A DNA stretch of 54,472 nucleotides from assembly GCA_003223295.1 (NCBI GenBank), contig QHYM01000136.1, positions 1 through 54,472 of the forward strand, read 5' to 3'. The stretch is from Acidobacteriota bacterium. GTDB lineage: Bacteria; Acidobacteriota; Terriglobia; Acidiferrales; UBA7541. The notes beneath the pieces are model-generated. The model was not told where the DNA came from, did no database searches, and saw only the letters and a list, made by a program, of their open reading frames with translations. Both the position numbers and the translations under genes were made by a program. The stretch's first letter is position 1. The number at the start of each line of letters is the position of its first letter. This document shows, in pieces, positions 1 through 23,914 of this stretch.

Positions 1-133
1 TCTCCAAAAACTTCGGGGTCATTTTCGTTCCGCCTTTCGAATGTGAATTACGTGCGCCTGGTGTCTTACGAAACAAACGCAGGGTGACAATAGGATATGT
101 AACGCCAATTGAGGGCGGGTCGCAGAACTCCTG

Positions 134-687
134 TCACTGTTTTGAGTAATGAAGCGCAACGCATCCTGATTTAAAAAACTTCGAATCAACAAGTTTTAAT
201 TGCAATTTCTCGGGCAGGCTAACGCCCTCCAGCAACCGTCTCCCTTCTCCTGCAAGGATTGGCTGAACGACAAAACGATATTCATCAACCAGGCCAAGCT
301 CTATAAGTTGTGAGGGAATATCTACACCACCGACCAAAATATTTTGCCTTGTTCTTGCTTCAACTTTAGTATTTCGTCGCGAAGGTTCGTACGAACAATC
401 CTGGTATTTCTATCTTCAGCGGTGGCTAGTGACCGCGAAAAAACAATTTTGTTGGTGGAATCAAATGCCCGAGCAAATTCGATATCTGCTTTTGTCTCAG
501 ACTGGTTTTTGAGGACTTCGGGCCAGTAGGGAACCATCAATTGATAGGTTTTACGCCCAAAGACCTGCAGGTCAACCTCTCGCGTGAGGTGAGTAAAATA
601 TTCAAGCGTTTCTTCATCGACAAATTGTTTGGTGTGGTCGACGCAGCCATCCAGGGTCGTGTTGATCGCGAAGATTAGCTTTCTCAT
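134..687 (-). pseudogene. RibD C-terminal/dihydrofolate reductase-like protein, one-base frameshift
   Basis: Two overlapping minus-strand reading frames together encode one protein of about 184 residues of the RibD_C/DHFR-like family, usually a soluble NADPH-dependent reductase of unknown substrate. The N-terminal part (start at 687) begins MRKLIFAINTTLDGCVDH and carries the FGRKTYQLM segment. The C-terminal part has the family motif ILVGGVDIPSQLIELGLVDE and QPILAGEGRRLLEG. The frame breaks at the T-run at 342-345; adding one base there gives GKNILVGGVD, the expected sequence. It lies in an island-like end of the window next to an equally broken AraC gene. This is either a decayed gene or a one-base sequencing deletion; I favour the latter because three other loci show the same pattern. 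Confidence 0.8.
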
Positions 688-780
688 TGATTGTCCCGAT
701 TTCCCCGTGTTGTCTTTCGTTGTTCTGCCGCGTACTCTAGCTTGGATTCGGTTGTTCCGCTAACGGGAAAGTGGCGATAG

Positions 781-1577
781 ATGTCGGAAAAGGGTCAATC
801 TCGTAAATCCATGTTCTCAGCCCTAAACAATATGGAAGAACTGCGCCGTCTCTACGACAGCGATACGCCAGTACTGGCATATGCCTTCAAGAGGCGGATG
901 GTCGAGGGCTGGGCGCCAGAGCACAGTCACCACCGCGGGCAACTCGTCGCACTGAGCCAGGGGTTGCTCATCGTGGAAACAGGAAACGAACGATGGATGT
1001 TTCCCTCCCAGCGTTGCGCATGGACTCCACCAAATTGTAAGCACGCGGCGCCCTCTGTCGGAGGCGCCGCTGGCTCGATGGTCGACTTGTCTCCGGAGAT
1101 GTGCCGCGGACTACCCAAGACGCCTTGCATGTTCAACTCATCGGAGCTATTGTCCGCCATAGTTCATCGTATGGTCGGTTGGGACCTCCACCAACCGCTC
1201 AACACGGCGAAGAAGCACTTAATCACAACGCTTCGTGATGAGATTCGACAGCCTGACCAGCAGCCCTTGCGTTTGACCATACCAAGAGAAGAAAGACGAG
1301 CCAGAGTTGCAGATGCTCTGCTGGATGATGTTGGGGATGACCGCACGCTGGACGCTTGGGCGCATGTTGCCGGAATGGCCCGCCGTACTTTCATGCGTGC
1401 GTTTCGGCTCAGGCAGGCATGTCATTTGGCCGTTGGCGACAGCAGGCGCGGTTGTTTGCTGCCCTTGAGATGTTGGCACAAAGGGAATCTGTCACGGAGG
1501 TTGCCATCGCAGTCGGTTACGACAGCGTAAGTGCCTTCATCGAAATGTTTCGGACGATGCTGGGAACCACACCGTAG
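781..1577 (+). pseudogene. AraC-family transcriptional regulator, one-base frameshift
   Basis: The first frame (781 to about 1410) encodes an N-terminal cupin-like AraC ligand domain, with HSHHRGQLVALSQG near residues 41-54, and the start of the helix-turn-helix region (RTLDAWAHVAGMARRTFMR). The rest of the HTH continues in another frame to the stop at 1577: QAGMSFGRWRQQARLFAALE, then VTEVAIAVGYDSVSAFIEMF, the typical second AraC helix-turn-helix. The switch falls at 1408-1410, where one additional base restores a continuous protein of about 265 residues. The target is unknown. The divergent RibD-like gene at 134-687 is a plausible partner. Confidence 0.8.
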
Positions 1578-2200
1578 ACATATTTTCGAGGCAGGCACAA
1601 TGGCGCGTCACCCTTGACGCTGTCCCGGAGCGGGGTCAAAAACTCATCGCGCAGTAGCGTTCCAAGTTTCCCGAACGTCTAAGAACGCTCGTCAGCGCTC
1701 GATGGCCATGGCACCTTATATCATCGGAATGGAAATGCGCCGAGGGGGCACGAATACCGATACAAGCAATCCATGCAGGCAATGACACCACGCGTAACGG
1801 CATCTACAGTCAGTCTGCGCGCTTTCGGCTTTCAACCAAATGCCTGGCCACTCATCGAAGAACTAAGCGGTTTTCCAAACCGCCGCCCACTCGAATGGCC
1901 CTCACGGATTACATTTCAGTGCGATTAACTCTTATCTGCGTGACATTGCTGAGACAGCGCTACAGCAAACAATCTACGATTTTGGCAAGCAACTCCACCC
2001 GCTTTCGGCTTTCGACCGAAGTATGGGTTTTCATCAATAGGCGGGAACCGATCGGAACACTTTCGCTGTTATTTCGCTATGGGGAAAATTCGGGGGACTC
2101 TGCGCATGCGCAGCCACATTTCTGTACATCGTGCCACTACCAAGTATTTTTCTAACTCGTTTGTTTTCAAAAGCGAGATTGAAAAGGAAGGACTTCCAAG
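1578..2200. other. Non-coding accessory stretch
   Basis: No convincing coding frame. It holds a perfect 7-bp inverted repeat at 1867-1883, an imperfect 20-bp direct repeat (GCTTTCGGCTTTC at 1821 and again at 2001), and a 14-bp perfect palindrome at 2100-2113 (CTGCGCATGCGCAG). The composition is less GC-rich than the core genes that follow. Together with the tRNA fragment downstream it looks like the eroded end of an integrated element, although no integrase is visible. Confidence 0.5.
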
Positions 2201-2260
2201 AGATAGTACGCCTGACTTGGGCGCAGGAGGTTTCCGGTTCAAATCCGGACGCCCCGACCA
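2201..2260 (+). tRNA. 3' fragment of tRNA-Pro(UGG), 5' half missing (probable attachment-site scar)
   Basis: The sequence contains the 3' part of a tRNA: an anticodon arm with loop CTTGGGC (anticodon TGG followed by G37), a perfect T arm (stem TCCGG/CCGGA at 2233-2249, loop TTCAAAT), the 3' acceptor strand CGCCCCG at 2250-2256, discriminator A and encoded CCA at 2258-2260. The matching 5' acceptor strand CGGGGCG is absent from the 100 bases upstream and no proper D arm exists, so the gene cannot be functional. A tRNA 3' end without its 5' half is the usual duplicated att site left at the far end of an element integrated into a tRNA gene. Confidence 0.8.
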
Positions 2261-2495
2261 CTAAGTGCCATGATCTGCGACTTCGCCGGAAATGAGAAAA
2301 ACGCCCAGGCCTAATACCTGCGGCACTCTGCATTCCTGAAGCGTTGAAAAGTTCTATCGTTTGCAATCTAGGAGTTCCCTTTTCGAGTCTTTCCAGCAGT
2401 CGCACAGGATTCTCCTCGATGGCCGATGACAACACCCCGGTCCGCGAACCGAACGAATAGAGATGGGCGCAGGTGTTCCTTAACTTTGTGCAATT
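2261..2495. other. Gap between tRNA fragment and GH31 gene
   Basis: No gene is supported here. The open frame on the minus strand spanning 2034-2435 runs through the tRNA fragment and yields the GFEPETSC-type peptide often mis-called over tRNA genes, so it is rejected. Confidence 0.5.
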
Positions 2496-4886
2496 CTACG
2501 GAGTGACAGTGGTTGCCTTGCCGGAGTAGCGCACCACCCTGTCTGGCTTGTTCTCGGCCTGTATGCCAACGCCGTGATTCCCGGAAACAAAAATGATCTG
2601 AAAGCCTCGCTCAGCCAGCATCCCCGGAAATTCACCCTTGCGTTCGCCGATCGTTAAGGTTTGCTTCGCATCGTCCCAGTGAAACCCAATGGTGGCGCAC
2701 ACTCCCTTTTCATAGTTGTAGCCGTCGTTTTCGTCTTCATAGAGTGTGAAATCTCCATCCGCGCCACGATAGACGCGCAGTTCGATCGGATCCTCCGGCT
2801 TCTCGTTGGACCATTCCTTTTCCGGCCCCATGGGAACGATGGAACCCGCACGCACAAACAAAGGCAGCCTCTCCAGAGGTGCACTTGCATCGATCGTGCG
2901 CGGGCCTTCCACTGAAGCTCCGCTCCAAAAGTCATACCACTTCGCTTTGGGCAGATAAACGCGCCTTGAATTCACGCCCGGATCGGTAACGGGGTTTACG
3001 AGAAACACAGGCCCAAACATAAATTGGTCGCCAATCGTGGCCGTTCGCGTGTCCGTCCGGAAATCCATCACCAGCCCGCGCATCGGAGTATAACCCTGGC
3101 TCGTTGTCATCCACGCGAGCGAGTAGATGTACGGGAGCAAGCGGTAGCGGAGAGTGTCGTAGTTGACCAGGATTTTTTGCGCTTCCGGGCCATACGACCA
3201 CAATTCATTCTGATTGGTGGAACGCGTCCCGTGAACCCTCAGAATTGGGTTAAATGTGCCAAACTCAAACCAGCGAATAAACAATTCGCGATATTCCGGA
3301 TCATCCGGATTGCCGGAAACAAATCCGCCGATGTCCGTCGTCCAATACGGAAGCCCGGACATTGAATAGTTCAGTCCAGCCGGGATCTGCTTCTTAAAGA
3401 AAATCCAATCGGAGTTCACATCCCCGGACCAAACCGCGGCTGCGTTGCGCTGTGAGCCCGCAAAAGCCGAGCGCGAGAGAATAAAAACGCGCTTCTTGTC
3501 CGATTCCCTGCGCTGGCCCTGGTACACCCCGCCCGTGGTCATCAGGGGAAACGCGTTCGCGTACCGTGCTCCGTTTCCGAGATAAGTCTTGTTTGTGACC
3601 AGGAGGTTGGTCTCCCGATCCTCTGTCTCCGGCTCTGTGGTGTCCAACCACCATGCATCAACGCCGATTTTGAAGAGCGCCTGGTCCATCAGATTCCAAT
3701 AATACTTTCGTGCTTCGGGATTAAACGCATCGTACAACGCCATTCCTGCGGGGTGGAAAGCCGCTACCTTTGTCTTGTCGATAAGCAAGCCGCGCTTGTC
3801 CATGTCTTCGTAGGTTTTTGTTCCAGGACGAATGTAGGGCCAGAAAGAAATCATCAAATGAAAATTGTTTTTATGGAGATCGTTGACCATCCCCGGAGGA
3901 TCGGGGTAGCGCGCCTTGTCGAATACCGGTTCGCCCATGGTGTACCACCAGAACCAGTCCTGCACGATGCTGTCCGCAGGAATGTGGAGCTGACGGTATT
4001 TGTGAGCCACGCCGAGCAACTCTTCTTGCGTGTTGTACTTGTTCTTGCATTGCCAAAATCCGTAGGCCCACTTGCCGAAAAGCGGCGGCGCACCGGTCAG
4101 TTCTCGGTATCCGCCGATGATTTTGTCAAACTCAGGCCCGTAGAGAAAGTAGTAGTCCACTTCGTCGGCTACTTCCGAACTGAGGTAGAGCGCGCTGAGG
4201 AAACGATTGTTGAAGCGGCTCCGCGAGGTGTTGTTCCAGAAGATGCCGTAGCCGTTGCTCGACAAGACGAACGGGATGCTGATGTTCGTGTTGTCCTGCG
4301 AAATATCCACTGCTTCGCCGCGATAATTCCAAACGCCGGCCTGATGCTGCCCAAGCCCGTAAAACGATTCATATGAGCCCCACAGCTTAGAGAAAAGCTC
4401 CGCGTGGTAGGTCTGCTCTCCATTCACAACGGCCCGAGTCATGTTCACTTCGGTTTGCTGGAACAGGGTCTTGCCGCTGGCATCCCGGAAGGTAACGCTA
4501 CTATCCTTGCGCGAGACGATCTCTTTGATTTGCGCAGTGCTTAGCACGATCGCGTCATCGGAAGATTGCAGCTCCCACTTCGTGGCAGGCCAACGGTCTT
4601 TGATCACCACAAGCTCGGGGCGGGTCGGAACCGCAGGAGTCGGTGAATAGCGCACGCGGATGATTGAGTCGGAGCAAACCTGCAGGCGCATCACGCCGCT
4701 CTGCAGTGTCAGCCGAACTCCATCGGACTCGCGCTGCATTGAGACGACAGGATTCAAAGGGTTCCATTGCGAACACGCGATTCCGGGAAAACAGATACAT
4801 GCACATACGTAAGAAAGCAGAATACTCAAGCCGCAGAAGCGCCGCCTTGAGTGGAACTCGACAGCGTGGTAGTTGTGAAAAATCAT
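2496..4886 (-). CDS. Secreted glycoside hydrolase family 31 (alpha-glucosidase/alpha-xylosidase-type)
   Basis: A 796-residue retaining alpha-glycosidase. An N-terminal hydrophobic stretch (about residues 17-38, ending CSQ) suggests export to the periplasm or surface. A galactose-mutarotase-like N domain (about 45-255) is followed by the TIM barrel: WQCKNKYNTQEEL at 278-290, the nucleophile segment DAWWLDTTEPE with Asp415, and the acid/base segment WSGDVNSDW with Asp489. Beta-sandwich domains follow, including GSIVPMGP at 681-688 and YEDENDGYNYEKG. Length and motif spacing match GH31 enzymes such as YicI. The substrate cannot be read from sequence; alpha-xyloside or alpha-glucoside is likely. 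It is monocistronic in appearance and starts the core side of the tRNA scar. Confidence 0.9.
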   Translation of the reverse strand: MIFHNYHAVEFHSRRRFCGLSILLSYVCACICFPGIACSQWNPLNPVVSMQRESDGVRLTLQSGVMRLQVCSDSIIRVRYSPTPAVPTRPELVVIKDRWPATKWELQSSDDAIVLSTAQIKEIVSRKDSSVTFRDASGKTLFQQTEVNMTRAVVNGEQTYHAELFSKLWGSYESFYGLGQHQAGVWNYRGEAVDISQDNTNISIPFVLSSNGYGIFWNNTSRSRFNNRFLSALYLSSEVADEVDYYFLYGPEFDKIIGGYRELTGAPPLFGKWAYGFWQCKNKYNTQEELLGVAHKYRQLHIPADSIVQDWFWWYTMGEPVFDKARYPDPPGMVNDLHKNNFHLMISFWPYIRPGTKTYEDMDKRGLLIDKTKVAAFHPAGMALYDAFNPEARKYYWNLMDQALFKIGVDAWWLDTTEPETEDRETNLLVTNKTYLGNGARYANAFPLMTTGGVYQGQRRESDKKRVFILSRSAFAGSQRNAAAVWSGDVNSDWIFFKKQIPAGLNYSMSGLPYWTTDIGGFVSGNPDDPEYRELFIRWFEFGTFNPILRVHGTRSTNQNELWSYGPEAQKILVNYDTLRYRLLPYIYSLAWMTTSQGYTPMRGLVMDFRTDTRTATIGDQFMFGPVFLVNPVTDPGVNSRRVYLPKAKWYDFWSGASVEGPRTIDASAPLERLPLFVRAGSIVPMGPEKEWSNEKPEDPIELRVYRGADGDFTLYEDENDGYNYEKGVCATIGFHWDDAKQTLTIGERKGEFPGMLAERGFQIIFVSGNHGVGIQAENKPDRVVRYSGKATTVTP

Positions 4887-5179
4887 TGGCCGAGCTCGCT
4901 TTCGTGTGAAAGACGATGGAAAGCTTGATCACGAGAAAATCGAGAACATGCTGCCGCTCACAACTCGGAAATCGCGTGACGACCGTAAGCACTTACTGAA
5001 CTTTTGCGCAGTGATTGTGCGCCCGCAGGCGCACAGATTCAACAACTGCTGGTTCCTGCCCGTACAGCGGCGGCAAACCGAGCCGTTATTTTGAAGCCGC
5101 AATCCGGCTCTTCACGGATAACTGACACATGAAGCACGCCGCTTCGGCAAGTGCGTAGTCCTCACGTTATACTGGAGAG
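4887..5179. other. Divergent intergenic region, GH31/ruvX
   Basis: No gene is supported. It holds the start regions of two diverging genes; the only promoter-like element recognised is the TATACT at 5168-5173 in front of ruvX. Confidence 0.4.
5168..5173 (+). promoter_or_regulatory. Candidate -10 box for ruvX operon
   Basis: TATACT differs from the consensus -10 at one base. No good -35 hexamer lies 16-18 bases upstream. It ends only 6 bases before the GTG at 5180, so either that GTG is read leaderless or the true start is the GTG at 5234, which has a GGAG six bases upstream. Confidence 0.35.
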
Positions 5180-5710
5180 GTGAATCGAGAAGGAATTGGG
5201 CTGCAGAAGGAGGCTCCTCTGACGGAGCCGCGTGTGGGGGGCTCGATTCTCTCCATCGATTATGGGCGGGAGAGAATGGGGCTGGCGATTGCGGATGCAA
5301 ACGCGAAAGTGGCCCAGCCGCTGAGCACCATGGAACGAATCAACCGAAATGAGGACATGCGGCGCTTGCGCGAACTGGTGCGCGAGCATAGCGTAAGGCA
5401 GATTGTCGTTGGATTACCACTTAAGCTGGATGGAACACGCGGTGAGATGGCGGAAGAAGCGGAGCGTTTTGCCCGCCGCGTCCGGAAGCAAATTGGCGTG
5501 CCGGTGGATATGGTCGACGAACGGTTGACGAGTTGGGAAGCGGAACGTTTACTCGAAGAAACTCAGGGAAGATTCCTTCACGTCGAAAAATCGGGCGGAG
5601 CCAGGAAGCAGAAGAGAGCTGCGGAAAGACTGACCGTGGATGCCGTCGCCGCCGCCGTGATTCTGAAAGAGTACCTCGAGCGGCAAGGGCAACCGGCGGG
5701 ACAGCGTTGA
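5180..5710 (+). CDS. ruvX: Holliday junction resolvase-like RuvX (YqgF)
   Basis: A 176-residue YqgF-type RNase H-fold nuclease, implicated in Holliday-junction resolution or 16S pre-rRNA end processing. It shows the first catalytic Asp in SIDYGRERMGLA, the conserved VVGLPLKLDGT, the DERLTSWEAE motif and the final Asp in TVDAVAAAVIL. The called start is a GTG; an alternative GTG at 5234 directly before the conserved GSILSIDYG would give a family-typical N terminus and has a better-placed GGAG. It is 30 bases upstream of mltG; ruvX-mltG adjacency is common in bacteria. Confidence 0.93.
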   Translation: MNREGIGLQKEAPLTEPRVGGSILSIDYGRERMGLAIADANAKVAQPLSTMERINRNEDMRRLRELVREHSVRQIVVGLPLKLDGTRGEMAEEAERFARRVRKQIGVPVDMVDERLTSWEAERLLEETQGRFLHVEKSGGARKQKRAAERLTVDAVAAAVILKEYLERQGQPAGQR

Positions 5711-20523: not shown

Positions 20524-21273
20524 TCACTTGCTTTTTGAAGCGGCGTGGCGTTGGCGGAGGGCTTCGAAGAGGACGACGCCGGCGGCGACGGAAACGTTGA
20601 GGGATTTCACGGGGCCGGTGGTGGGGAGCGAGACGACGAAGTCGCAGCGCTTGCGGGTCAATTCGTGCAGGCCCTGGCCTTCGCTTCCTAGAACGATGCC
20701 CACGGGTGCAGTGTAATCCACTTCGGTGTAGGTTTTATCCGCGGTTTCGTCCAGCCCCACGAGCCAATATCCAGCCTCCTTTAGTTCCTCCATCGCGCGG
20801 GCGAGATTCGTCACTTTAGCCACGGGCAGATGCGCCAGCGCTCCGGCGGAAGAGCGCGCGACTGTGTCGGTGAGGCCGGCGGCGCGGCGCTCGGGAATCA
20901 CCACACCATGCGCGCCTGCGGCCAACGCCGTTCGAACGATCGCTCCCAAGTTGTGAGGATCCTCGACCCCGTCGAGCAGGACGATGAGTCCCATCTGGCC
21001 GCGCCCGGAATTCGCGCTTGCGAGAATATCTTCCAGAGTGGCAGCGGCACGTGCTGCCGCCAGAGCAACAACGCCCTGATGATCTTTCGAATTGGCCAGG
21101 CGGTCGAGCTGCCCGCGGTCCTCGAAGCGCACGGGAATGCTCTGCTTGCGGGCGAGTTGCACGATTTCTTCGATGCGCGTGTCCTGCCGGCCCTTGGCGA
21201 TGGCAATGCGGTCAATGGGGCGCTGGGCTTCGAGCGCTTCTTTCACCGCGTGGATGCCGGTCAGCTTGTCCAT
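20524..21273 (-). CDS. rlmB: 23S rRNA 2'-O-methyltransferase RlmB (SpoU family)
   Basis: 249 residues. An N-terminal substrate-binding domain begins GIHAVKEALEA. The SPOUT motifs follow in order: NLGAIVRTALAAGAHGVVIP, GSEGQGLHEL and the knot SLNVSVAAGVVLFEALRQR. RlmB methylates G2251 in the ribosomal P loop; TrmH-like specificity cannot be fully excluded, but the N-terminal domain favours RlmB. Confidence 0.9.
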   Translation of the reverse strand: MDKLTGIHAVKEALEAQRPIDRIAIAKGRQDTRIEEIVQLARKQSIPVRFEDRGQLDRLANSKDHQGVVALAAARAAATLEDILASANSGRGQMGLIVLLDGVEDPHNLGAIVRTALAAGAHGVVIPERRAAGLTDTVARSSAGALAHLPVAKVTNLARAMEELKEAGYWLVGLDETADKTYTEVDYTAPVGIVLGSEGQGLHELTRKRCDFVVSLPTTGPVKSLNVSVAAGVVLFEALRQRHAASKSK

Positions 21274-21495: not shown

Positions 21496-22044
21496 TTAAT
21501 CCAGGGCGGTGCAGAATTCGAGGATGCGGGCCCGAGCGTACTTGACGGGCACGGCAAAAGGCAGCGGAGCCGCTTCATCGAGAAGCAGGATGACGCGGTC
21601 GAGCGATCCATCGCCGGGGCGACCGGCGAGGGCCAAGCGAAGAGGATATAGCAGCTCGCGGCCGGGCAAATGCAATTGCTCTTTCAGCTTGGTGATGATT
21701 TCTTTGAACCGCTCAGAGTTCAGCGGGGCGCCATCCAAGAGCAGCAGCGCCGCTTCGCGAAGCACGTCGCGTGCGGCGTAGCGTGAGAGGACTTCGTGCG
21801 TTTCTGTTCTGGCCATGATTTCGGGTGCGTCGTAATGAAAAACCAGCGCGAGTAATTCGCCGAGGGCAGCGCAGTCGGCAGCGTGAGCGCCAAGAATGGC
21901 CGCTGCGCGTCCGCACCAAGCGTCGATTTCAGGGGTGGGGTCCGTGGTCAGCCAGCCGCGTTCGCGGAGAATGGCAAGAATATCGCGGGAGGTGAAGGGA
22001 TTTGCGGCCTCGACGGATGGTGCGGGTGGGTTGGAGGGAACCAT
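21496..22044 (-). CDS. Free-standing GluRS-like anticodon-binding domain protein
   Basis: 182 residues from the ATG at 22044. The sequence resembles the helical C-terminal anticodon-binding region of glutamyl-tRNA synthetase: a helix pair ending LGELLALVFHY, then FKEIITKLKEQLHLPGRELL, YPLRLALAGRPGDGSLDRV (compare the GR(E)LFHPLRxALTG motif) and a final VPVKYARARILEFCTAL like the terminal helix of GluRS. The catalytic HIGH and KMSKS parts are absent and the frame is intact. It sits directly after ispF, where Bacillus has a full gltX, so it may be the surviving part of gltX. A tRNA- or GluRS-binding role is inference. Confidence 0.65.
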   Translation of the reverse strand: MVPSNPPAPSVEAANPFTSRDILAILRERGWLTTDPTPEIDAWCGRAAAILGAHAADCAALGELLALVFHYDAPEIMARTETHEVLSRYAARDVLREAALLLLDGAPLNSERFKEIITKLKEQLHLPGRELLYPLRLALAGRPGDGSLDRVILLLDEAAPLPFAVPVKYARARILEFCTALD

Positions 22045-22125
22045 GGAAAGAATTGTAGCGCACTGAACGAACCGAAAAGCCGGGGGGACGCGCAAAAGCG
22101 CGCCCCTACACGGAGAAGCCATGCG

Positions 22126-23055
22126 TCAGCGCGAGGAGAGGGTGGCGACGACGTGGGCGGCGATGGCTTCACCGCGGCCGATCGCGTCGACGCCTTCGTT
22201 GGTCTTGGCTTTCAGATGGATTTTGTCGGACGAAACGCCGAGCGCCTTGGCCAGGGCTTCGCGCATCTTCGGAAAATGCGGTCCCAGCTTTGGTTTTTCG
22301 GTGATGACCACGGCGTCGACGTGCTCGATGGTGAAGTTCTTGTCTGTGAGCAACTTCTTGGCATGCTCGAGGAAGAGCAGGCTGTTTGCGCCCTTCCATT
22401 GCGGATCGGTGTCCGGGAAATGCGTGCCGATGTCGCCCAGTCCCGCTGCACCCAGCAACGCATCGCAAAGCGCATGGGCGAGCACGTCACCGTCGGAATG
22501 CCCCACCGGCCCCCTGTCAAACGGCAACTCAATCCCGCCAACGATGAGAGGCCTGCCCTCCTCAAGGCGATGCAAATCGTAGCCGATGCCGGTTTGCGTC
22601 TTTGAGGAGCCAGCTTGCGCAGTTCGCCACGAACCCCCTTTCATTCGCTGCAGAAGGAAGAGACAAAACCCTACGAGGAGAAGGAGGGGCATGCCATTCA
22701 CCAGAAGCAACATCCAATCAGCACTGCGCACTTCTTTGACAGTGACCTGGACGCCCTTTTCGCGAAGATGCTCTGTAACGGAAGGAGCAGCCTCCTTGAA
22801 AAGTGTTACGTGGAAACCGCGGTTCGGTGAATGAGCGTCCTGCCCCCACAGATCGTAGCTGCTCTGAGAGAGATACATCGTAACGTTTTTGATTTCGCCT
22901 GCGTCCACCTTGGCCATGAATTCGTTGTAACTGATTTCGTCCTTACCCGAGCGGGAACTGTCTGGGGAATAGAGCTTGTAGAGCATCAACCCAAGAAAAA
23001 TGATCGAAAACCAGAATAAAACGGTCTTTGCGGTAGAACTGGAATTCATGCTCAA
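22126..23055 (-). CDS. ispF: Fusion: FtsH N-terminal (FtsH_ext) membrane module + IspF
   Basis: 309 residues in one frame. Residues 1-140 match the FtsH N terminus: TM1 (11-29), a periplasmic FtsH_ext domain with ISYNEFMAKVDAGEIKNVTM, and TM2 (114-136) ending LLQRMKGG. No AAA or protease domain follows. From residue 156 it is a complete 2-C-methyl-D-erythritol 2,4-cyclodiphosphate synthase: GYDLHRL (metal ligands Asp160, His162), GHSDGDVLAHALCDALLG (His194), GDIGTHFPDTDP, KAKTNEGVDAIGRGEAI. IspF makes MEcPP in the MEP isoprenoid pathway. FtsH topology would place IspF in the cytoplasm on the membrane. There is no start codon with a ribosome site at the IspF boundary. Its ATG overlaps the ispD stop. 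Confidence 0.93.
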   Translation of the reverse strand: MSMNSSSTAKTVLFWFSIIFLGLMLYKLYSPDSSRSGKDEISYNEFMAKVDAGEIKNVTMYLSQSSYDLWGQDAHSPNRGFHVTLFKEAAPSVTEHLREKGVQVTVKEVRSADWMLLLVNGMPLLLLVGFCLFLLQRMKGGSWRTAQAGSSKTQTGIGYDLHRLEEGRPLIVGGIELPFDRGPVGHSDGDVLAHALCDALLGAAGLGDIGTHFPDTDPQWKGANSLLFLEHAKKLLTDKNFTIEHVDAVVITEKPKLGPHFPKMREALAKALGVSSDKIHLKAKTNEGVDAIGRGEAIAAHVVATLSSR

Positions 23056-23768
23056 ACCTTTTGGGTCTCGCGGTCGAGGTAGAAACGGGCGAGTTCCATG
23101 TCGGCGGGCTTGGTGATTTTCATGTTGCGCTCGGAGCCGAGGACGACGTGAACGTCGTGGCCCAGCCGCTCGACGAGCCCGGCTTCGTCCGAGGCGTTCA
23201 CGCCGTCCGATTGTGCGCGAGCAAACGCTTCCCTGAGGAGCTTGGTCGCAAAGACCTGTGGGGTTTGCGCCAGCACCAGGCGCTCGCGCGGGATGGTGCC
23301 GGTGATCAGCGCCACGTCTTCCGGTAAGCTCGCGCGCTTGACTTCCTTCACGGTATCCATCGCGGGGATGCCGAGGATGGCGGCCTGGCAGCGGCGCGCT
23401 TCCTTGATGACGCGGGTAATCTGCTCGACAGTCACGAAGGGCCGCACGGCATCGTGCACCAGCACGATTTCCGCGTCGTTAGGCACTCCGCGCAAGGCGG
23501 CGGCGACGGAGTCCTGCCGGGAATCGCCCCCTTTGACCACGCGCACGGGCTGCTTGAATTCTTCCTTGGCGATGCGCTCTTCGAGACGTTGCACTTCGTC
23601 GGCGCGCGTGGCGACGATGAGATCGGTCACCAAGGAGCAGGAAGCGATGCGCCGCAAGCTGAGGATCACGATGGGCGTGCCGTTCAGCTCGAGAAACTGC
23701 TTGGGCGTTTCCGCGCCCATGCGCGTTCCCATGCCGGCGGCCGGCAAAATGGCAGCGATTCGACTCAT
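23052..23768 (-). CDS. ispD: 2-C-methyl-D-erythritol 4-phosphate cytidylyltransferase
   Basis: 238 residues from the ATG at 23768; the open frame runs further without similarity. The nucleotide-binding loop LPAAGMGTRMG..PKQFL, VHDAVRPFV and TGTIPRERLVLAQTPQVF are typical. It forms CDP-ME in the MEP pathway, one step before IspE (at 31.6 kb) and two before IspF, whose gene follows with a four-base overlap. Confidence 0.94.
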   Translation of the reverse strand: MSRIAAILPAAGMGTRMGAETPKQFLELNGTPIVILSLRRIASCSLVTDLIVATRADEVQRLEERIAKEEFKQPVRVVKGGDSRQDSVAAALRGVPNDAEIVLVHDAVRPFVTVEQITRVIKEARRCQAAILGIPAMDTVKEVKRASLPEDVALITGTIPRERLVLAQTPQVFATKLLREAFARAQSDGVNASDEAGLVERLGHDVHVVLGSERNMKITKPADMELARFYLDRETQKV

Positions 23769-23914
23769 ATCGGAAGCGGCACCGCCCGCGAGGCCCCAGA
23801 GGCGGATTCGCAAGAGTTTGAGTTTACCTCAAGCGGGGGTAGGGGGCGAATTTTGGAGGGGCTGGTAGTAGTGAGTTCGTTCTTCCATGAGGGAAGCTAA
23901 AAGCAACCCGCCCG

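Follow-up and report, generated by a model that had tools for sequence, protein, structure and literature searches.

An FtsH N-terminal membrane module joined to IspF in uncultured Acidobacteriota, with a ClpC-type counterpart in the same family

What is the membrane part of a protease doing at the head of an enzyme of isoprenoid synthesis? The question is raised by a window of 54,472 nucleotides, the whole stretch of DNA that we analysed (contig QHYM01000136.1 of genome G000), in which the frame directly behind ispD had been described, in a sequence-only reading, as the N-terminal module of FtsH fused in frame to a complete IspF. Pfam matches to both parts and an AlphaFold2 fold bear this description out, and the fusion is a real, conserved architecture. 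With moderate confidence, we take it to be a selected IspF fusion, predicted to be functional and to be held at the inner membrane by its FtsH N-module. The features on which the argument depends are the following.

22126..23055, minus strand: fused coding sequence, FtsH N-module plus IspF (open frame, Pfam domains, six relatives)
23047..23049, minus strand: likelier start codon, an ATG common to 7/7 fused genes, giving 307 aa
22969..23043, minus strand: first transmembrane helix (TM1) of the FtsH module, residues 5-29 (AlphaFold2 helix; hydropathy peak in 7/7 fusions)
22729..22965, minus strand: FtsH_ext (extracytoplasmic) domain, about residues 31-109 (PF06480 and the model)
22636..22719, minus strand: second transmembrane helix (TM2) of the FtsH module, residues 113-140, ending LLQRMKGG (model helix)
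22600..22635, minus strand: linker, residues 141-152, mostly of low confidence and poorly conserved (model and alignment)
22129..22599, minus strand: complete IspF domain, residues 153-309 (YgbB match and fold match)
22126-22128, minus strand: stop codon of the fused coding sequence
23052..23813, minus strand: ispD, directly upstream of the fused gene (IspD match, E 1.1e-62)
21496..22122, minus strand: gene lying between ispF and rlmB; Pfam matches it weakly to an anticodon-binding domain (PF19269, E 1.4e-5)
20524..21273, minus strand: open frame that we take to be an rlmB-like rRNA methyltransferase gene, used as a flank gene in trees

The frame is open from 23055 to 22126 and encodes 309 aa if started at TTG. 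The ATG at 23049 is more likely the start, because it recurs in every fused gene and the upstream codon is not conserved as a start, being TTC in G025 and TTA in G018 in the alignment of fused genes. An AAGG seven bases upstream of the ATG in 6/7 fused genes is weak evidence for this start, since it is also the end of ispD and is present ahead of a plain ispF (G024). With this ATG as the start, ispD would stop 2 bases short of the fused gene, and the four-base overlap of ispD with the fused gene that had been proposed is probably wrong. It had also been stated that the gene has no usable internal start. By eye, no good ribosome-binding site was seen ahead of the internal start codons, but several in-frame ATG, GTG and TTG codons exist, and the fused gene may yield a second, short product from one of them.

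Pfam places FtsH_ext (PF06480) at residues 13-107 (E 5.4e-10, above the cut-off) and YgbB/IspF (PF02542) at residues 154-306, where the match spans positions 2-154 of the 155 in the profile (E 3.1e-62) and the domain is complete. Neither an AAA ATPase module nor an M41 peptidase was found in the fusion, for which Pfam at E up to 0.1 gives YgbB and FtsH_ext only. When a profile was built from six fusions, its positions 8-147 matched FtsH chains of known structure (best E 3.1e-9), and from about position 150 on it matched IspF chains of known structure. The AlphaFold2 model, whose input of 28 sequences held only two with the FtsH part, has a helix at residues 5-29, a folded alpha/beta ext domain (pLDDT 81-90 in blocks 41-110 and 55-65 in 21-40), a helix at 113-140, a loose linker (pLDDT under 50 at residues 141-148) and a confident IspF fold. 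The linker is short, as had been noted, with a length of about 12 residues rather than about 15. The IspF part of the model fits its best match among solved structures, the IspF chain 3f0f_A, with Z 28.5 and rmsd 1.0 over 159 residues. IspF-containing entries alone appear among the matches listed for a structure search with the model, which says nothing against the FtsH fold, as that rests on sequence. D160, H162 and H194, presumably the Asp and His residues of the IspF metal site, are invariant across 28 aligned IspF sequences, in agreement with the earlier statement that the active-site residues are kept.

The genome that carries the window is a draft metagenome bin of 6.03 Mb in 481 contigs, 95.2% complete and 4.49% contaminated. 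A profile search of this genome gave one IspF match and one FtsH_ext match, both in the fused gene, and no M41/FtsH peptidase match. The fused product is thus the only IspF found in the genome. The six other carriers of the fusion each have a single IspF place and a full FtsH frame. A check for a normal ftsH and another ispF, which had been suggested for this genome, therefore gave one IspF only and left its ftsH missing, with FtsH present in all six relatives. In G027, the ftsH region reads tilS-ftsH-folP-peptidase-ruvX-mltG (names read from the frames). The window carries the ruvX and mltG end of that region without the rest, and a nucleotide search of G000 with the tilS-ftsH-folP stretch of G027 matched only the fused module. 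Within window positions 1-5200, a glycosidase-like frame (2496-4928, minus strand, by reading) lies where G027 has tilS-ftsH-folP. Five of the 36 genus members (G000, G003, G011, G026 and G030) have no above-cut-off FtsH N-terminus. Because tilS is normally essential, a gap is likelier than true loss, and the absence of ftsH and its usual neighbours from G000 is probably an assembly gap. Real loss of FtsH from the cell was considered and found unsupported, as a missing FtsH N-terminus in five of 36 genomes fits draft gaps.

A fragmented draft bin in which ftsH has no match could itself have produced the join, by misassembly or misbinning. We regard this as hardly credible, given that the same join occurs in seven separately assembled genomes with diverged sequences. 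The sequence-only reading had called for a search for the same fusion in other genomes, and six separately assembled members of the genus carry it. The case that it held against itself, a separate complete ispF with no relative bearing the fusion, came out the opposite way.

The 5' end of ispF is readable in 33 of the 36 genomes of the genus (unreadable in G012, G022 and G030). An FtsH module lies between ispD and IspF in seven of them (G000, G025, G027, G029, G005, G008 and G018), 25 have a plain IspF, close sisters included, and one (G006) has a ClpC-type module ahead of IspF. Most plain IspFs start MS(T/V)RC near the ispD stop. The codons ahead of the module, apparently the first two of ispF, are TTGAGC in G000, GTGAGC in G027, TTGAGA in G029 and ATGAGT in G005; among eight plain genes shown, most start ATG AGC or ATG AGT, and G014 starts GTG AGC. 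The insertion point of the module thus seems, from these alignments, to lie behind ispF codon 2.

FtsH_ext matches above the cut-off in the genus number 36, of which 31 are FtsH proteins, with contig ends truncating two of them (G009 and G031), and five are IspF fusions. The remaining two fusions are that of G029, which falls below the cut-off, and that of G018, which has no ext domain. G018 encodes TM1, about 14 residues, TM2, linker and IspF (238 aa) in an intact frame from which the ext domain has been deleted. The ext domain of G008 is still recognised by Pfam (E 1.5e-9), yet shares no more than 24-29% identity with the six FtsHs of the genus used for comparison. Both helices are retained in G018 and in G008. 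Besides the G029 fusion, nine more weak FtsH_ext matches fall below the cut-off in the genus. We set these aside as chance matches rather than further ext proteins, since the three of the nine that were read are unrelated proteins, which we take to be secretion-type membrane fusion proteins.

The FtsH type was not seen outside the genus: 52 of 59 order members matched the query at E up to 1e-40, none with a match spanning both parts. Of 396 genomes sampled evenly across the phylum, none but the window's own gave a match to the FtsH-type query (E up to 1e-68), and with a ClpC-type query (E up to 1e-62) the same genome was again the only match, by its IspF part alone. A phage search returned 17 records, none covering 80% of the query, and the best 5 of 17 match the IspF part only. 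Neither type of module was seen outside the family of the window's genome.

Within that family, a second kind of module occupies the same place. The ClpC N-domain (Clp_N, PF02861) stands directly ahead of IspF and behind ispD in seven other species. Outside the genus, 46 more genomes of the family are readable (a count that leaves out two second copies and the unreadable G109), of which six are ClpC-type and 40 have no recognised extension. The six are G097 and all five members of one genus (G061-G065). When 399 genomes of the class were searched with the ClpC-type query, 78 matched at E up to 1e-62, a threshold that could miss a distant or poorly aligned fusion; all 78 are in the family, and seven of the matches span both parts. 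The seven proteins align end to end, and their profile matches solved ClpC N-domains from position 1 or 2 to about 113-132 (best E 5.6e-8). Clp_N is above the Pfam cut-off in G097, G061, G062, G063 and G065 and just below it in G064 and G006. A structure model of the ClpC type had low confidence in its N-domain (block pLDDT 33-71), and the model was left unused. In six genomes searched for Clp_N at E up to 0.01, a search in which three of the fusions (G061, G065 and G097) were recovered and the G006 fusion was missed, the non-fusion matches were frames of 708-934 aa, which read as ClpC/ClpB-like, and two frames of 293 and 322 aa. Clp_N is therefore not scattered over many enzymes in these six genomes. 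The two short frames, in G025 and G000 respectively, showed no AAA module that we noticed.

Elsewhere in the family, ispD and the IspF part stand more than 90 bases apart at some loci. At five of 11 such loci, a scan found no Pfam domain at E up to 0.05, and the other six hold in-frame parts of 7-37 aa. A public record titled 'Betaproteobacteria bacterium' (CAJCHZ010000044.1) holds an Acidobacteriota-type ispD-ispF locus, and its label is probably wrong.

The sequence divergence of the modules bears on whether they do anything at all. Among G000, G025, G027 and G029, dS was computable in four of the six pairs, where the dN/dS of the FtsH module is 0.14, 0.16, 0.20 and 0.21, and in all six pairs the differences concentrate at third codon positions. 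The module's ratio is higher, 0.13-0.55 where computable, once G018, G008 or G005 is one of the pair. For the ClpC-type module, the ratio is 0.08-0.25 across the ten pairs within G061-G065; where it could be computed for pairs that include G097 or G006, it is 0.19-0.70. These values are rough, as dS is near saturation in most pairs; the same near-saturation of synonymous sites implies that both types of module are old. We conclude that the FtsH module is mostly under purifying selection, as far as such ratios indicate. The IspF part, at 0.03-0.05 in the computable pairs of G000, G025, G027 and G029, is more constrained, and the module evolves faster. This faster evolution and the patchy distribution, with plain IspF in 25 of 33 genomes, count against a selected anchor. 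One interpretation of these findings is that in-frame pieces landed ahead of ispF, were tolerated and persist without a function of their own, a reading to which plain-IspF sisters, the partly deleted copy in G018 and the strongly diverged ext domain of G008 also lend weight. Neutral persistence is hard to square with dN/dS well under 1 over a near-saturated synonymous distance, with the presence of the ClpC type in five of five members of one genus and with the fact that both partners are N-domains of AAA+ proteases, and we consider it improbable.

The history of the modules is not one of simple descent. One origin for all FtsH fusions was rejected by an AU test on the module (p 9e-5; 1.8e-4 without G008), as was one clade of FtsH-fused IspF parts (p 1.3e-4). 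In trees of the IspF domain, the fusions fall in separate places, and the family tree needs at least seven changes of label. The IspF parts of the G005 and G008 fusions lie away from the others, with G111 (100/93). The IspF of G008 pairs with that of G005 (100/100), whereas the flanking ispD and rlmB trees place G008 beside the G000 group, a conflict that points to an allele exchanged in place; on these trees, at least one FtsH-fusion allele has moved sideways. Grouping the modules of G005 and G008 together was not rejected (AU p 0.088). The G005 module groups with its own ftsH (97/74; 85.7% nucleotide identity) and is mostly 85-95% identical to it in the middle and 73-82% at both ends. This mosaic looks like gene conversion or a younger capture, and gene conversion could make one origin look like two. 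The other five modules (G000, G025, G018, G027 and G029) cluster (90/87; 95/87 without G008). An independent origin for each clade was weakly rejected for G029 (p 0.037) and G027 (p 0.047) and was not rejected for the G000 group (p 0.18).

The ClpC-type modules present a similar picture. One clade of ClpC-type IspF parts was rejected (AU p 3e-6), and the seven modules cluster together against eight ClpC or Clp_N-only sequences (99/99) in an unrooted tree in which G006 is a long branch. Because the modules group together though their IspF parts do not, we do not claim many independent captures from ClpC. Rather than a simple vertical trait, the trees suggest an insertion allele that species have gained, lost and passed to one another, and that ftsH sequence may have overwritten in places.

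How the fusion might work can be approached from FtsH itself. FtsH has a cytoplasmic N terminus, TM1, a periplasmic domain, TM2 and a cytoplasmic AAA+ part, and works as a hexamer with its N-module in the membrane (PMC10850787). If the fusion follows FtsH topology, its N terminus would be inside, the ext domain outside and IspF in the cytoplasm just behind TM2, so that the earlier placement of IspF on the cytoplasmic face of the membrane is likely. We infer that a duplicate of the 5' end of ftsH, inserted after ispF codon 2, gave rise to the module, which may have been retained for bringing IspF to a particular location. The likeliest such location would be beside FtsH, where the amount or activity of IspF could be controlled post-translationally. 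Our main reason for favoring this placement is that, in relatives, the site is taken by the N-domain of another AAA+ protease, ClpC. Since that domain does not anchor proteins in membranes, a tether by itself leaves one of the two types of fusion unexplained. In G018, by comparison, the ext domain was lost and both helices were kept, so that the anchor is what is kept there. Read together, the ClpC relatives would argue for a link to proteases and the G018 form for the membrane.

In the stricter form of the protease link, the N-domain of FtsH or ClpC would let IspF dock on that protease, whether to join it, to block it or to be handed to it, such that isoprenoid synthesis and proteolysis would regulate each other. 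We regard this form as possible and hold it tentatively. It would account for the arrival of two unrelated N-domains, both from AAA+ proteases, at one ispF site in one family, and for the narrow choice of partner, given that every above-cut-off FtsH_ext domain of the genus belongs either to an FtsH or to an IspF fusion (31 and five of 36). It also fits where the module stops, which is ahead of the AAA part of FtsH and of most of its linker of about 20 residues. In Aquifex FtsH, a 20-residue linker behind TM2 is needed for activity and proteolysis (PMC7949044). FtsH sequence ends in the fusion roughly where that linker begins, and the fusion would thus supply the membrane part of the ring without its motor. 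A subunit without AAA is expected to poison FtsH rings unless it stays outside them, which speaks against docking, as do the missing ext domain of G018 and the weak constraint on ClpC-type modules compared between genera (the range up to 0.70 given above).

The sequence of TM2 offers a further sign of docking. TM2 identities were compared with six FtsHs rather than with all 31. For six fusions the host's own FtsH is known, and in every one of these TM2 is no more distant from the clade of that FtsH than from other clades. For example, TM2 of G029 is 0.96 identical to the FtsHs of G029 and G027 and 0.78-0.81 to the rest, TM2 of G008 is 0.93-0.96 within its own clade and 0.78-0.85 outside it, and TM2 of G005 is 0.70 in its own clade versus 0.59-0.63. 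TM1 and the ext domain show this pattern weakly or not at all, except for the G005 ext domain (0.90 to its own FtsH). At the nucleotide level too, TM2 identity is highest inside the clade; the match may therefore stem from old gene conversion, which weakens it as evidence for docking.

Alternatively, the FtsH hairpin may simply park IspF near membrane-bound users of isoprenoids, with FtsH uninvolved and the ClpC fusions a separate story. The 238-aa protein of G018, which keeps both helices without the ext domain, and the diverged but recognisable ext domain of G008 speak for a plain tether. Such a tether would leave unexplained why six of seven carriers keep the ext domain; the whole N-module of an AAA protease is an odd choice for a mere anchor, and ClpC N-domains cannot serve as one. 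We think this alternative rather unlikely.

ClpC is the degrading Hsp100 for DXS, an MEP enzyme, in Arabidopsis. Hsp100 chaperones there decide between refolding of DXS and its degradation by Clp (PMC4729485), and this precedent for protease control of the pathway favors a protease link. We speculate that grafted N-domains, taken at least once each from ClpC and FtsH, made IspF a client or regulator of AAA+ proteases. This proposal is a doubtful one; if it were true, isoprenoid flux and the activity of the membrane or cytosolic protease would be read against each other in a single protein.

Bacterial control of the middle of the MEP pathway is poorly understood. The natural joining of an essential MEP enzyme to the recognition or anchoring domains of two different AAA+ proteases hints that the supply of isoprenoids is coupled to the turnover of proteins or to a position at the membrane, and suggests that the carriers, which are uncultured soil bacteria, tie isoprenoid synthesis to one or the other. 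Nature has supplied a series of variants, from plain IspF through the FtsH module and the FtsH hairpin without ext to the ClpC module. With E. coli and B. subtilis enzymes, one study found that no complex of IspD, IspE and IspF formed in vitro, despite earlier reports of association (PMC5821942), so a shared scaffold is not established elsewhere.

The earlier remark that no protein of this kind had been described agrees with our literature search, which, among the papers listed, found no published description of an IspF fusion with FtsH or ClpC and whose coverage left out preprints and a large share of subscription papers; as far as that search reaches, the architecture is undescribed. The fusion can be set beside four known systems. 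With IspF (YgbB, PF02542) it shares the whole catalytic domain, with its invariant Asp and His residues and a fold match of Z 28.5. Solved IspF chains among the matches listed are named IspF, IspD/IspF or engineered scaffold, and no name among them mentions a protease N-domain. With FtsH (PF06480, AAA and M41) it shares TM1, the ext domain and TM2 in FtsH order; FtsH continues with AAA and M41, whereas the fusion lacks both and has IspF after TM2. ClpC contributes its N-domain ahead of IspF in the seven other species of the family and not in the protein of the window; ClpC has AAA modules after Clp_N, which the ClpC-type IspF fusions lack. The known IspF fusions are IspDF proteins (PMC5821942). 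IspDF of Campylobacter and Helicobacter resembles the present protein in having an N-terminal extension on IspF in ispD-ispF gene order. The partner in IspDF is the pathway enzyme IspD, whereas here IspD has its own frame upstream, and IspF is joined to the N-domain of FtsH or ClpC instead.
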